Assembly: GCA_002780065.1 (NCBI GenBank)
Contig: PEWQ01000082.1
Location: 1 to 7,430 of the forward strand
Direction of reading: 5' to 3'
DNA length: 7,430 bases
DNA from: Candidatus Hydrogenedentes bacterium CG07_land_8_20_14_0_80_42_17
GTDB lineage: Bacteria > UBA8481
Both the position numbers and the translations under genes were made by a program. Positions 620-7,430 of this stretch are shown piece after piece. Under the pieces are notes generated by a model. It searched no databases, was not told the DNA's origin, and was given only the letters and a program-made list of their open reading frames with translations. Within the stretch, counting starts at the first letter, position 1; every line of letters begins with the position of its first letter.

Positions 620-1639
620 ATGGTTAATTACCATATAGGAATCGACGTCCATCGGCAGTCATGGAACGTCTGTATTATACGCGAACGGGAGATTATATTT
701 CAAGGGGTAATTCCTCCTCGAACAAAGAATCTTCTCGAAATTTTTGGGAAGCACGGAGTGACGGCGGCTAAGTCTCAGATCGCATATGAGATTGGAGGTT
801 GCGGATTCTGGATCTACGACGAATTGACGGCGGCTCACTTCGATGTTGTTGTCGCTACGCCTTGTCAGATTCCTCGAGAACCGACAAGAATCAAGACCGA
901 TGCTCGTGATAGTCTTGAATTAGCCAGGCTATTGCAAAGAGGTATGCTTCGAAGTATCGCGATTCCCATTCCTGAGGAAAGAGCGATTCGCGATCTCGTC
1001 AGAACTCGAGGCATGCTTGTTTAAAATCGCACGTCCATGCTTCGGCGCATTAAAGCGAAACTGATGTTTCAGGGAATCGAGTACGGCATCCAAAACTGGT
1101 CCGGCAAATTCAAGGAGTGGATTCGTTCACAGACTTTAGCGTCAGAAGTAAGGCAGTCGTTTGAGCATTTGTTCTTTGTTATCGACGTATTAGATGATCA
1201 GATTTCCTCTTGCGAAAAGGAAATCGCTACAACGCTGAAAGAAAATTCAAGCGACCTGATGACGATGTATCAGAGCGTGCCGGCCTTCGGAAAGGTGACG
1301 TGCGCAATCATGGTCACTGAATTAGGTGATCTCAAATGATTCGCTTCGCCTGAAAAAGCTGTGGCGTTTGTCGGGCTGTGCCCCGGAGAATATTCCAGCG
1401 GAGAAACGATTCGACGCGGACGAATTACACGGCAAGGAAATGTGCAGTCGCGAACCGCTCTTGTGGAAGCTACCTGGCGGGTGATCCAAATGGATCCGGA
1501 GATGAAAAAGTTTTACCAGAGGCTGGCCGCAAAAAAAGGCGGCAAACGAGCGATCGTGGCTGTCGCTCGAAAATTGTTGCACCGCCTTTGGACGATGTTT
1601 CAAAGCGGAGAAAGATATCAAATCGGACGAGCGGCATAG
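620..1639 (+). pseudogene. IS110-family transposase with two in-frame nonsense codons
   Basis: One reading frame encodes a full-length IS110 transposase (339 residues plus the final TAG) except for TAA at 1022-1024 (codon 135) and TGA at 1337-1339 (codon 240). No frameshift is needed. The start at ATG 620 is set by AGAAAGGAG at 604-612 and by the MVNYHIGIDVH opening, although the frame is open further upstream. The N-terminal RuvC-like DEDD residues are visible: D9 in GIDVH, E57 in YEIGG, and D94 and D97 in KTDARD. The C-terminal Tnp domain has GLCPGEYSSGE followed by RRGRITRQGN, with the likely catalytic serine at S260. Each stop is one substitution from a family-typical codon (AAA to TAA, CGA to TGA). 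The stops fall near the domain borders, leaving RuvC, linker and Tnp pieces. The most likely reading is a recently inactivated copy; sequencing errors or recoding cannot be excluded. Confidence 0.9.
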
Positions 1640-1827: not shown

Positions 1828-1932
1828 GCTGTGGAAAAGACGTTTGTGGAATTCCCAAAAAGAAGGGAATCCCACAAACTTGGAAAACTCGAAGCGGCGG
1901 TAGCCGCGTCGAGTTTTCCACTTTCCCACAGC
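1828..1932 (-). repeat. Three-way-junction (cloverleaf-like) palindromic element
   Basis: The whole 105-base segment folds into one closed structure. The outer stem is GCTGTGGAAAAG (1828-1839) with CTTTCCCACAGC (1921-1932): 11 pairs and one A-C mismatch (1835/1925). Arm 1 is GTTTGTGGAATTCCC (1842-1856) with GGGAATCCCACAAAC (1865-1879): 14 pairs, one A-C mismatch (1850/1871), and an 8-base A-rich loop. Arm 2 is GGAAAACTCGA (1882-1892) with TCGAGTTTTCC (1909-1919), then an A-G mismatch, then GCGGC (1894-1898) with GCCGC (1903-1907) closing a 4-base loop. Only 1-2 bases lie at each junction. On the minus strand both A-C mismatches read as G-U wobbles, so the minus strand is the better folder; hence the strand given. 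It could be a non-autonomous interspersed repeat (MITE or REP-like), or a structured RNA. Reading frames running through it on both strands appear to be by-products of the palindromes. I do not recognise the family. Confidence 0.8.
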
Positions 1933-3549: not shown

Positions 3550-6500
3550 ATGAGCATATCTCGGTTAGCGCAGGGCATCATATCTCTATGTATCGTTGTC
3601 GCAATCATTCCGACTTTTGCGCAAACGACAGGATTTGTTGAAGTACCTTTTGAACTTGGTGATATGGTTACGCGGGATGTCGGTAGCGGAGCAATTACAG
3701 GTGGTCATAACGGCATACTCACTGGTGTTATCAGCTATATTGATGGTGTTGTTAAAAGCGAAGAATATGTAATTAATCTTTTAACTTCCGATGGCACTAC
3801 TGCATTCATAACCGAAGAAACTCTGTCTGAATTTGAAAATGTGGGTGGACAAACCAACCCAATCTGGGGCGTAAGAACTTTAGGAGATGATGCAACAGAC
3901 ACAGTAAGAAAAAAGGTTATACGGTTGGCAAGAGAGTGGTTGCCCATAACGACGATAAGGTACAGTGGCGGTTCTAGCCCTTTGGGAGCGGGATCAAGCC
4001 TATATCCAACTATTTTGAATTTCAGAAGAAAATTGCCCAATTTGGCAACGGGATTGTACCCAGTTGATCCTGCTCATCCAGATTGGCCTGAATATCCGGT
4101 CTTCAGATCTGATGGATTCACAGAATATGTTTATGAGAAAGCTATGGTTAGAAACGGAGTCGGGATAACCGATGGAGAAGATCATCCATTAACGAATTTT
4201 TCTGCACAGAAACAATGGGATGCAATGTTGGATCGACTTACTGTATTGCCGCGAATACCTGTATGGGAGATCGTCGATGTTCATAAATGGGCATTGAACC
4301 CCGGAAACAATTCGAGTCCTTTCTATTTGCGAGCGCATGATTACAGCAAAGATGCTTCTGGCATACGTGCGTTCGAGATAGAACAAATTCAGACCGCACC
4401 AAATCAGTCGACAACTCCGACAATTACGAAGGACTATGGTAGCAACCCAGTGGAATACGGTAGCGCCGGGTATGCAACTCTTGGTTGGGCTATTGAAGAG
4501 AATTTAGGCGATTTATCTGATGGCGTCTACAGAGTTCGAGTATGGGACGGCGCCGGAAACATGTCCGAGCAAAACATTACCATTGAACAAAGGCTGAATA
4601 TACGGATCAACGGCACAGTTGCCAGACCAAGTGGAAATCTATTGCAAAAGGCAGTAGTGCGGATCTACTGGCAAGGGAACTACTTAACTACCGCTAAAAC
4701 GGGCATTGGTTTATCGACGGGGAAGTGGAGTACGGATCATATCGATCCAGTTGTCGCAATTACTGCGGGTCACTATCACCTATTAGAGATGTACGACGGA
4801 TATGGCCCCCAGCTTATCGATGTGGGCCAGCTTAATCCAGGGGAGACACGGACCCTTAATATCAATTTGCCAGCGGAGGGAAAAGTATCTGGTGTCGTGA
4901 GACGTTCTACTGACAATGCCCCTATAGACGGAGCTACTGTTGAAGCTTGGTATGATATTCCTGCTATCAACGAATCGATAAAGTTGTCGAAAGCTATTAC
5001 TGACGGTAATGGTAACTATTCCTTAGGATCGCTTCCAAATAATCAAGTCAGAATTAAGTATCATCATGATAAATACGCAGAGCTTGAAAATAGTGTAGCG
5101 GCAGTCTCAGGGCAAACCATCAACCATGATATTTTGCTAGTGCCTATGCCGGGATCGCTTGAAATAATTGTTGAGAGAGATCTTGATGGAACAAGGCTTG
5201 ATAACACTTCTGTCACGGCGACGGCGACCAACCTCTTCGCCGGAACAGACTATCAGTCAACATTCACTGGATCAACTTCAGGTGGTGGGCAGTTCCTAAT
5301 TTCTAATGTTGGCCCGGCTCTATATTCAATCACGGCATCACTGTCCGGATACTTCTCAGAAACCTCGCCTAATAATCAAGTTATGCCGGCCGAAACCAAG
5401 ACGATTGTCATCAAACTGGTCAAAAAAGCAAAACTAACGGCTCAGGTTGTGGATGCTTCGAATCAACCCATCCCCGGCGTTGCTGTCACCTTCACCGGCA
5501 CATCCGGGGGTAATTACCCCAGCCAGACGCTCAACCTTACCACTGACGCGCAAGGGTGGTTTCAAGTGGAAGGCTTGCCGCCAGGCTCATATGCGATAAC
5601 GCTGGATAAAAGCTCCGAAAACTACGCACCCAAAACCGTAACCGTCACCCTCGGCGACGGCGAGGCGAAAATGGACCAGTATGTTCTTCTCAAACTGGGC
5701 GTGATCGAGGGGACCGTAACGCGCGCCAATGCTACGAATGACGCAGTTCCTAACGTGACAGTTACGGTGGCCGGGCCTGTAACAAAAATGAATGCCACGG
5801 ATGCACAAGGTCATTATCGCATCGAAGCCCTTCTCGCCGGCAATTACGCCGTATCGGTCACGGCTCAAGGATACGTGACGCCTTCGTCACAAAATGCGAC
5901 TGCCGTTAACGGGCAAATAACCCCGGTGAATTTCGTTCTTCAGAAATTGGGAAGTCTTTCGGGCAACGTGCAAAGCACGACCGGGTCTGCAATCTCCGGC
6001 GCAACGATTATGATATCGGGTGCGATAACAAAGACCGCGACCAGCGACGGTTCAGGCCACTTCAACTTCGATGAATTGCCGCCCGGCGTATATTCAATCA
6101 GCACTACTGCAAATGGATACGCCTTGCAGAGCGGTAGCAAGGACGTTCCGGAGGGAGGGCAGGCCACAGTTACGATCGTCATGCAGGCAGTTGGAAAGAT
6201 CACGGGAGTTGTCTCTTCTTCGACAGGCGGCGGAGTTGGCGGTGCGATCGTTAGCGCCGGGAGTTATTCGACTACAACTGCAGGCAACGGATCGTACACA
6301 CTAGAAAATATTCCGCACGGCAACTACACGGTCACGGCAAGCGCGCCAGGATACACTGGCGGCTCACCGGTGAATGTGACCGTATCGGCCACGAACGCGA
6401 CGGCCAACTTCACGTTGAATCCTCAGCCGTGCGGCATCAATGTCACGGCGAATGTTTCGGCGTCGTTCTCGCTGTCTGGACCAAGCGGAGGAAGCGCGAC

Positions 6501-6888
6501 TGGCACTTCTCACGATTTCTATCCTTTGCCGCCCGGATCATATTCCATTACGGCATTTGCGAACGGATACCAGTCTCAAACGCAGTCCGTCGGAATTTCT
6601 CCGGGCCAGCATCCGACCATCAACTTCAATCTTCAGCCGAACCAAGGTAAGGGCACCATTCGCGTAACGGTGAGAAAGATCAACAAGAAGGGAGACGAAG
6701 TGTGTGCACAGAATACCTACGTGCAGGTTTCCGGCCCGGTAACCGCGGGCCACAACACTAATTTCTCGGGTGTCGCGACGTTTTCGGATCTGCCGTTGGG
6801 GAGTTATTCCGTTAGCTGTCAATACGGTAGCGGCAGCGTCCAATTGACGATTGACGGGCAGATAGTGAATATTCAGCTTGGACCATAA
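3550..6888 (+). CDS. Large exported protein: permuted NlpC/P60-like domain, Ig-like region and about nine regulatory-like beta-sandwich modules
   Basis: The protein has 1112 residues. Its start is set by the stop-start junction with the upstream gene and by GAGAGGAAA at 3532-3540. A signal peptide (hydrophobic 9-21, cleavage after A24 in PTFA-QTT) sends it out of the cytoplasm; no C-terminal anchor or sorting tail is seen. Residues 35-230 resemble a circularly permuted NlpC/P60 papain-fold domain: GDMV at 37-40, GGHNGI with His53, then FRSDGFTEYVYE at 185-196, where Ser187 sits where the nucleophilic cysteine is expected. The domain may therefore be non-catalytic. Residues about 236-347 look Ig-like, ending in WDGAGNMSE. 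From about 349 to the end run nine repeats of about 80-95 residues of the carboxypeptidase-regulatory/CnaB-like type, each with a TDxxGxY/F strand, an LPPGxYSI turn and a GY motif. Modules begin near 349, 442, 535, 627, 717, 801, 882, 961 and 1033. The role is unknown; a surface or periplasmic binding or structural function is inferred. GC rises markedly in the 3' third. Confidence 0.9.
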   Translation: MSISRLAQGIISLCIVVAIIPTFAQTTGFVEVPFELGDMVTRDVGSGAITGGHNGILTGVISYIDGVVKSEEYVINLLTSDGTTAFITEETLSEFENVGGQTNPIWGVRTLGDDATDTVRKKVIRLAREWLPITTIRYSGGSSPLGAGSSLYPTILNFRRKLPNLATGLYPVDPAHPDWPEYPVFRSDGFTEYVYEKAMVRNGVGITDGEDHPLTNFSAQKQWDAMLDRLTVLPRIPVWEIVDVHKWALNPGNNSSPFYLRAHDYSKDASGIRAFEIEQIQTAPNQSTTPTITKDYGSNPVEYGSAGYATLGWAIEENLGDLSDGVYRVRVWDGAGNMSEQNITIEQRLNIRINGTVARPSGNLLQKAVVRIYWQGNYLTTAKTGIGLSTGKWSTDHIDPVVAITAGHYHLLEMYDGYGPQLIDVGQLNPGETRTLNINLPAEGKVSGVVRRSTDNAPIDGATVEAWYDIPAINESIKLSKAITDGNGNYSLGSLPNNQVRIKYHHDKYAELENSVAAVSGQTINHDILLVPMPGSLEIIVERDLDGTRLDNTSVTATATNLFAGTDYQSTFTGSTSGGGQFLISNVGPALYSITASLSGYFSETSPNNQVMPAETKTIVIKLVKKAKLTAQVVDASNQPIPGVAVTFTGTSGGNYPSQTLNLTTDAQGWFQVEGLPPGSYAITLDKSSENYAPKTVTVTLGDGEAKMDQYVLLKLGVIEGTVTRANATNDAVPNVTVTVAGPVTKMNATDAQGHYRIEALLAGNYAVSVTAQGYVTPSSQNATAVNGQITPVNFVLQKLGSLSGNVQSTTGSAISGATIMISGAITKTATSDGSGHFNFDELPPGVYSISTTANGYALQSGSKDVPEGGQATVTIVMQAVGKITGVVSSSTGGGVGGAIVSAGSYSTTTAGNGSYTLENIPHGNYTVTASAPGYTGGSPVNVTVSATNATANFTLNPQPCGINVTANVSASFSLSGPSGGSATGTSHDFYPLPPGSYSITAFANGYQSQTQSVGISPGQHPTINFNLQPNQGKGTIRVTVRKINKKGDEVCAQNTYVQVSGPVTAGHNTNFSGVATFSDLPLGSYSVSCQYGSGSVQLTIDGQIVNIQLGP

Positions 6889-6920: not shown

Positions 6921-7430
6921 ATACGGCATTCAACAAAACTTAAAAAAGGCGAAACGATCGGAATATACGCAAACACACTCTCGAGTCAACTCGCTGAAGC
7001 AGTTTATCGCGAAGCGCTTTTGATTGGAGCTCACCCGTTCATACGTTTGTCTCTGCCTTCTATTCAACCGTTCTTCTTCAAGAATGCTAATAAGGAGCAG
7101 TTGACACGAATTTCTAAATTGGATTGGGCAGAAGCGCGCGAGGTTGATGCCAGAGTGATAATCATTTCGGATTCGAATACTCGCTCTCTTGCCGGAATCG
7201 ATCCTCGTCGAATCGCAGAATTTTCCCGAGCACGTAAGCCTGTTAGAGACTATCTCATTAACAACAAGAAATGGTGTCTTACAATTCATCCTACCGAAGC
7301 TCTGGCTCAAGAGGCCGGAATGTCTTTGGAGGATTATTCTTCGTTCGTTTATTCGGCTTTGTTCATCGATCAAAAGGCTCCTATTAGAGAATGGGAGAAA
7401 CTGGAACGAAAGCAGGCTGAGCTTATTCGG
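6921..7430 (+). CDS. M29-family aminopeptidase, N-terminal part, start codon missing (runs off right edge)
   Basis: The frame encodes about 170 residues of the N-terminal domain of an M29 aminopeptidase: RHSTKLKKGETIGIY, EAVYREALLIGAHP, then DARVIIISDSNTRSLAGIDP, FSRARKPVRDY, and AGMSLEDYSSFVYSA, all typical of the family. The metal-binding C-terminal half lies outside the window. The frame is open back to a TGA at 6852-6854, but no ATG, GTG, TTG or CTG lies in frame before the conserved KKGE; the first is a TTG at 7020, inside the domain. The coordinate given uses ATA at 6921, four bases after AAGG (6913-6916), as the only place that would keep the conserved RHSTKL. Intact family members usually have about 15 more residues before this point. 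The gene is therefore probably 5'-truncated by the neighbouring accessory DNA, or starts at a rare ATA. It forms a tandem pair with the fragment at 2-265. Confidence 0.8.
   Translation, partial: MRHSTKLKKGETIGIYANTLSSQLAEAVYREALLIGAHPFIRLSLPSIQPFFFKNANKEQLTRISKLDWAEAREVDARVIIISDSNTRSLAGIDPRRIAEFSRARKPVRDYLINNKKWCLTIHPTEALAQEAGMSLEDYSSFVYSALFIDQKAPIREWEKLERKQAELIR

Follow-up and report, generated by a model that had tools for sequence, protein, structure and literature searches.

A conserved three-way-junction module near one end of unrelated bacterial insertion sequences

Introduction

Insertion sequences (ISs) are commonly described as consisting of a transposase and two ends. Here, we report the analysis of a 7430-base stretch of DNA, hereafter the window, which is the entire contig PEWQ01000082.1 of the 2.39 Mb draft genome of Candidatus Hydrogenedentes bacterium CG07_land_8_20_14_0_80_42_17, and of a module at 1828–1932 that folds into a three-way junction behind an IS110-family transposase pseudogene. 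A preliminary description, made from the letters of the window, had singled out this stretch as a possible non-autonomous mobile repeat or structured RNA. It is nearly certain that the stretch belongs to a conserved family of structured modules, relatives of which are found in other genomes and with other transposases. A module of fixed strand and fixed orientation in at least seven unrelated IS families suggests a common need that is absent from current models. In addition, IS borders and remnants can be annotated with the search model that it supplies, and it offers a case in which action as RNA might be distinguished from action as single-stranded DNA.

The locus and the fold of the window copy

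The module lies downstream of an IS110-family transposase pseudogene (620–1639, plus strand), which was recognized from its open reading frames and from Pfam matches to PF01548 and PF02371 and belongs to the same subgroup as the IS110 adjoining a module at another locus, L160. The pseudogene keeps one frame with two stop codons (TAA at 1022–1024 and TGA at 1337–1339), so that a dead element stands beside an intact module. Between the transposase stop and the module, sequence and reading frames delimit an interval at 1640–1827, which places the module 188 nt behind the pseudogene's end, in the orientation usual for the family. The pseudogene is probably the IS to which the module belongs, and we infer that the module lies inside this IS110 element.

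When folded as RNA, the 105-nt stretch 1828–1932 reaches −63.5 kcal/mol on the plus strand and −70.9 kcal/mol on the minus strand, compared with means of −25.6 and −27.0 kcal/mol for dinucleotide shuffles (z −11.4 and −11.2, respectively); 0 of 200 shuffles were as good. As single-stranded DNA, the corresponding energies are −40.5 and −43.2 kcal/mol (z −11.0 and −11.4), with minus-strand shuffles averaging −12.4 kcal/mol. The three-way junction that had been read from the sequence is thus real.

On the minus strand, which is the strand bearing G·U wobbles, the module (1828–1932) consists of a 12-bp outer helix and two arms separated by junction gaps of 0, 1 and 2 nt. Both the fold and the family alignment define the outer helix, whose 5' strand (GCTGTGGGAAAG, 1921–1932, minus strand) bears the conserved GTGGGAA motif and whose 3' strand (CTTTTCCACAGC) occupies 1828–1839, also minus. 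From the fold, the first arm (1881–1920, minus) is the hairpin TGGAAAACTCGA..TCGAGTTTTCCA of 12+5 bp with one mismatch, and the second arm (1842–1879, minus) is the hairpin GTTTGTGGGATTCCC..GGGAATTCCACAAAC of 15 bp with one G·U pair. The 11, 14 and 16 pairs given in the preliminary description come near the plus-strand counts. Its statement that both A·C mismatches of the plus strand become G·U pairs on the minus strand is correct, and the plus-strand fold is weaker because these two G·U pairs turn into A·C; a third mismatch, A·G on the plus strand (1893/1908), which it did not mention, is unpaired on either strand. Immediately 5' of the module, position frequencies over 84 copies identify the conserved tag of the family, of the (YMG)3-RGG type and here TCGTCGCCGT (1933–1943, minus). 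At 1815–1834, a small hairpin, CCACAG..CTGTGG, competes with the outer helix and could represent an alternative fold.

A family of related modules

GTDB genomes were first scanned with a pattern of the outer helix only, blind to strand. Among the 58 stretches obtained, 26, all from Acidobacteriota, agree with the window in the whole three-way fold and in the junction letters; many others (from Halodesulfovibrio, Bipolaricaulota, Oscillospiraceae, Sphingomonas and elsewhere) were unrelated palindromes and were discarded. A covariance model built from Acidobacteriota copies only, without the window copy (R2), recovers the latter in a genome-wide search of its own genome with an E-value of 4.1e-12, and finds copies in 44 of 396 Acidobacteriota genomes at 1–11 per genome. 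A broader model (R3) was trained with the window copy included, and its new matches are therefore those in other genomes; it finds copies in nine of 386 diverse genomes, namely the window's own and eight others. Plasmid and phage collections gave no useful match to the module. The search of host and related genomes with a covariance model, proposed in the preliminary description, has therefore yielded relatives in other genomes.

Within its own genome the module is single-copy by both blastn and the covariance model, and no copy was found in the one other genome that represents the host phylum in the collection. A dispersed repeat of the host genome is thus ruled out, and the earlier idea of a mobile repeat fails in that sense; the family is mostly carried inside ISs.

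Conserved structure and covariation

The module is mostly 80–135 nt long in the family and comprises an outer helix and two hairpin arms. In a structure-fitted alignment of 63 rows (A6), 37 of the 40 base pairs change on both sides. The cells of this alignment are paired in 96.5% of cases, compared with 73.7% in shuffles, and 504 cells show changes on both sides, compared with 125 in shuffles and at most 84 when partners are slid. A MAFFT alignment of 16 close copies (A4), which was not fitted to the structure, gives 98.4% pairing and eight both-side-change cells versus 2.0. Counting covarying pairs has accordingly borne out the suggestion of a structured family.

Each helix largely retains TGGGAA opposite TTTCCA with a G·U wobble, the third G of the motif facing U in 43, 53 and 36 of the 63 rows in the respective helices. 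The ends of the arms vary freely among copies, and a relative consisting of a single hairpin was met once (L201). One genome (G039) has copies with near-identical flanks and, in some of them, a wholly different first arm. There, the loci L200 and L203–L206 are near-identical element copies that differ by wholesale replacement of the first arm, and an insertion in the second arm of L206 creates new pairing.

Carrier insertion sequences, borders and orientation

The carriers, as assigned by NCBIfam, are ISNCY_2 (E-value 4e-108), IS481 (4e-74), IS3 (4e-61), IS21 (IstB, 9e-65), IS256 (1e-102), IS110 (7e-59) and an IS6-like element (2e-20), together with two unassigned DDE elements; there are further IS21, IS110 and IS256 carriers. 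In most of the Acidobacteriota copies found by the pattern the flanks are conserved too, and the module sits within an ISNCY-family IS (NF033594), about 80 nt from its end, where it overlaps the final codons of the transposase gene. Among the carriers in Acidobacteriota, ISNCY_2 is the principal one, and a structure specific to ISNCY was considered until modules turned up in other IS families. The transposases at L031, L066, L135, L180 and L131, from unrelated families, have similar C-terminal tails of the FPTAPTA/FATAPATG kind, since the module overlaps their last codons. Selection on an encoded peptide was rejected as a general cause, as the module lies outside the transposase frame in IS21, IS256, IS481 and IS110 carriers.

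An IS110 transposase adjoins the module in the window, at L160 and at L175, which would suit a module that belongs to the IS110 element proper, for example as its bridge RNA. This is very improbable, because elements with DDE transposases, for which no use of a guide RNA is known, carry the same module; as a general account, an IS110 bridge RNA is refuted by the modules in ISNCY, IS481, IS3, IS21 and IS256 elements.

Carriers of the same family are alike across the whole element. Between copies from different families, DNA similarity does not extend beyond about −16 and +8 nt of the module, as in the comparison of an IS21 (L136) with an IS256 (L161) carrier, which are 88.8% identical over 89 nt. 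Each element holds one module, near one end. On the 5' side, the (YMG)3-RGG tag is conserved, and GTAG, GTCG, GCAG and GCCG all occur. Terminal inverted repeats would stand at both ends, be specific to a family and bind its transposase; here, a single module is common to unrelated families. Because it is shared by unrelated transposases, the module is also unlikely to be a transposase binding site.

A recognized transposase lies within 600 nt of the module at 50 loci, several of which are near relatives and represent fewer than 50 independent events, and at 47 of these it lies 3' of the module, as read along the wobble strand. The wobble strand therefore runs from the IS end inward. The transposase is antisense to the wobble strand at 39 of the 47 loci and sense at eight. 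These eight same-strand carriers led us to abandon the idea of an element confined to 3' ends and always antisense to the transposase; the inward orientation holds.

Borders as sharp as these across IS families could also be left by a selfish palindromic hitchhiker, similar to a giant repetitive extragenic palindromic (REP) sequence, that inserts itself into IS ends and elsewhere and is then carried along. The GYMG-type tag beside a palindrome and the strand-specific mismatches recall GTAG-tagged REPs (PMC3733652), copies occur without a recognized transposase, and a whole arm is replaced between the otherwise near-identical copies in G039. Nevertheless, copy number is low for such an element, and its position near one IS end and its inward orientation are not random. 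Furthermore, RAYT (PF01797, Y1_Tnp) is absent from five of 21 carrier genomes, including two (G582 and G750) in which the copies lie on megabase contigs; mobilization by RAYT is therefore not required. We consider a self-inserting palindrome rather unlikely.

Copies without a recognized transposase

In several genomes (G639, G768, G631 and others) an IS481-like element has been lost except for one end, which has persisted together with the module. At four orthologous loci without a recognized transposase, the module is about 0.8 conserved, compared with 0.67–0.72 for the flanks in more distant comparisons, and some pairs change together; in the closest pair (L156/L159) the 3' flank is as conserved as the module. 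Selection on the structure thus seems to extend beyond active elements, although four loci are few. At L154, L155, L156 and L159, the module occupies an orthologous place behind a gene whose product resembles, by eye, a TraD-type coupling protein, and no transposase was recognized nearby.

Strand preference and mode of action

Among 90 distinct copies, the wobble strand gives the more stable fold in 89 with RNA parameters, by a median of 13.3 kcal/mol, and in 87 with DNA parameters, by 6.4 kcal/mol. G·U accounts for 382 of 3183 pairs on the wobble strand and for 22 of 2829 on the opposite strand. The first 26 copies came from the strand-blind pattern. The preliminary description had argued from the wobbles of the window for selection on a minus-strand molecule; with one copy this argument is weak, because two transitions on the same strand are expected half the time, and at the level of the family it is strong. 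We conclude that the module probably acts as a single strand, in a strand-specific manner, through its inward strand.

As to function, we put forward, at about even confidence, an undescribed host-read structured module that has been acquired repeatedly by unrelated IS families and that would serve them through a strand-specific fold at the border, either as an RNA insulator or as a start site on single-stranded DNA. The module would be recognized not by the transposase but by some factor of the host, if by anything beyond its own fold, and would act as a single-stranded molecule of the inward strand, most likely RNA. Transcripts entering the element from the flanking chromosome would fold at the border into a tight structure that may stop, process or inactivate them and thereby insulate the element; in most cases such insulation would also limit antisense transcription across the transposase gene. 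RNA is considered the most likely mode, since RNA energies give the largest difference between the strands. Taken as a whole, this account falls just short of even as the best explanation, and the RNA insulator as the module's mode, a function proposed from sequence comparisons, is a tentative choice within it.

Several points weigh against this account. The alignment A6 was fitted to the structure and includes both strands of the window copy. Since the wobble strand was the basis of the covariance models, the asymmetry is somewhat inflated, and many copies are near relatives and not independent. Nor does the asymmetry distinguish RNA from single-stranded DNA, both of which favour the same strand. 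At 45 loci no transposase is recognized, partly since contigs end beside the module. An insulator against read-through activation would be expected at the 5' end of the transposase gene, and most copies lie at the 3' end. Finally, no T-run follows the module on either strand (means of 3.6 T in 12 positions on the wobble strand and 2.5 on the other), and in the window copy a short TCTTTTCC comes after the second arm only; the module is therefore not a standard terminator.

The missing T-run bears equally on a terminator or 3' stabilizer of the transposase mRNA. Such a role would agree with the 39 of 47 3'-side modules that follow the transposase gene at its 3' end. However, in nearly all copies it is the mRNA strand that folds less stably, with A·C where the other strand has G·U, and eight carriers have the module ahead of the transposase gene, which makes this role improbable.

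Single-stranded DNA offers another way in which one strand could be read. IS3, IS21 and IS256 transpose by a copy-out route via circular or figure-eight intermediates, and IS110 forms circles. The displaced strand of a copy-out intermediate would bear the wobble fold, and a protein of the host, be it primase, PriA or RNA polymerase, could start the second strand there. This would account for the sharing of the module by unrelated transposases, its single copy per element, its fixed orientation to the IS end and the strand preference. Nevertheless, DNA parameters roughly halve the strand difference (6.4 versus 13.3 kcal/mol), the module persists in orthologous host loci without a recognized transposase, and the IS6-like carrier would break the copy-out rule. 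We regard a start site on single-stranded DNA as possible and, compared with the insulating RNA preferred above, as less probable.

Relation to known systems

The single-strand origins of rolling-circle plasmids are orientation-specific folded modules, common to unrelated replicons and read by host enzymes. The module described here differs in that it resides in ISs and not in plasmids; the likeness rests on general features, with function inferred. If our account is true, bacterial transposons would have in the module an accessory part in common, much as plasmids have their single-strand origins. The PATEs (palindrome-associated transposable elements) of haloarchaea combine a long palindrome with transposon ends, are non-autonomous and have one family of ends. 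By description, the module is like them a long palindrome coupled to transposon ends.

REPs of the GTAG and CGTC superfamilies are single hairpins of 20–40 bp, usually in high copy, and CGTC REPs have been reported without association to transposase genes (PMC3733652; PMC2817692). The module shares with REP/RAYT elements a palindrome, a short one-sided tag, a favoured strand and probably the occurrence of more than one copy per genome. Unlike REPs, it is a three-way junction of 80–135 nt, is located inside unrelated ISs at low copy and is also present in genomes without a Y1 transposase. In ISPpu9, IS-borne small RNAs and mRNA structure are reported to regulate a transposase (PMC8450116); these are tied to one IS, whereas the module, with its sequence motif unchanged, is found again in unrelated families. 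The paper on the IS1202 family (PMC10132070) does not mention a hairpin, stem or palindrome.

A search of Rfam 15 gave no match for the window and only a tRNA for nine other loci with copies. The remark that the element exceeds a simple REP in complexity and could not be assigned to a family therefore holds, with three helices in 80–135 nt and no Rfam family. A full-text literature search, which covered few subscription journals and did not include ISfinder, found no description of the module. Within that scope, the family is apparently new.

Other features of the window

The window and its genome contain further traces of mobile elements. At 2099–2230 lies the C-terminal remnant of an IS3/IS481-type transposase (ending ..YLGFYNTKRPHNALGMRTPEEVYLSVN and a stop), followed by a perfect 14-bp hairpin at 2231–2267; part of 2099–2267 has an 80% copy on another contig (C146). 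A REP-like hairpin, AAAAGGGGACAGGC..GCCAGTCCCCTTTT, is found at 309–352, with partial matches on two contigs (C10 and C19), and the host genome gives four Y1 transposase matches. Both ends of the contig fall within M29-type peptidase genes, the C-terminal part of one at 1–265 and the N-terminal part of one at 7020–7430; the contig may have paralogues on its two flanks or represent a collapsed repeat. The region 3550–6888 encodes a 1112-residue protein, probably exported, with about seven carboxypeptidase-regulatory-like domains.
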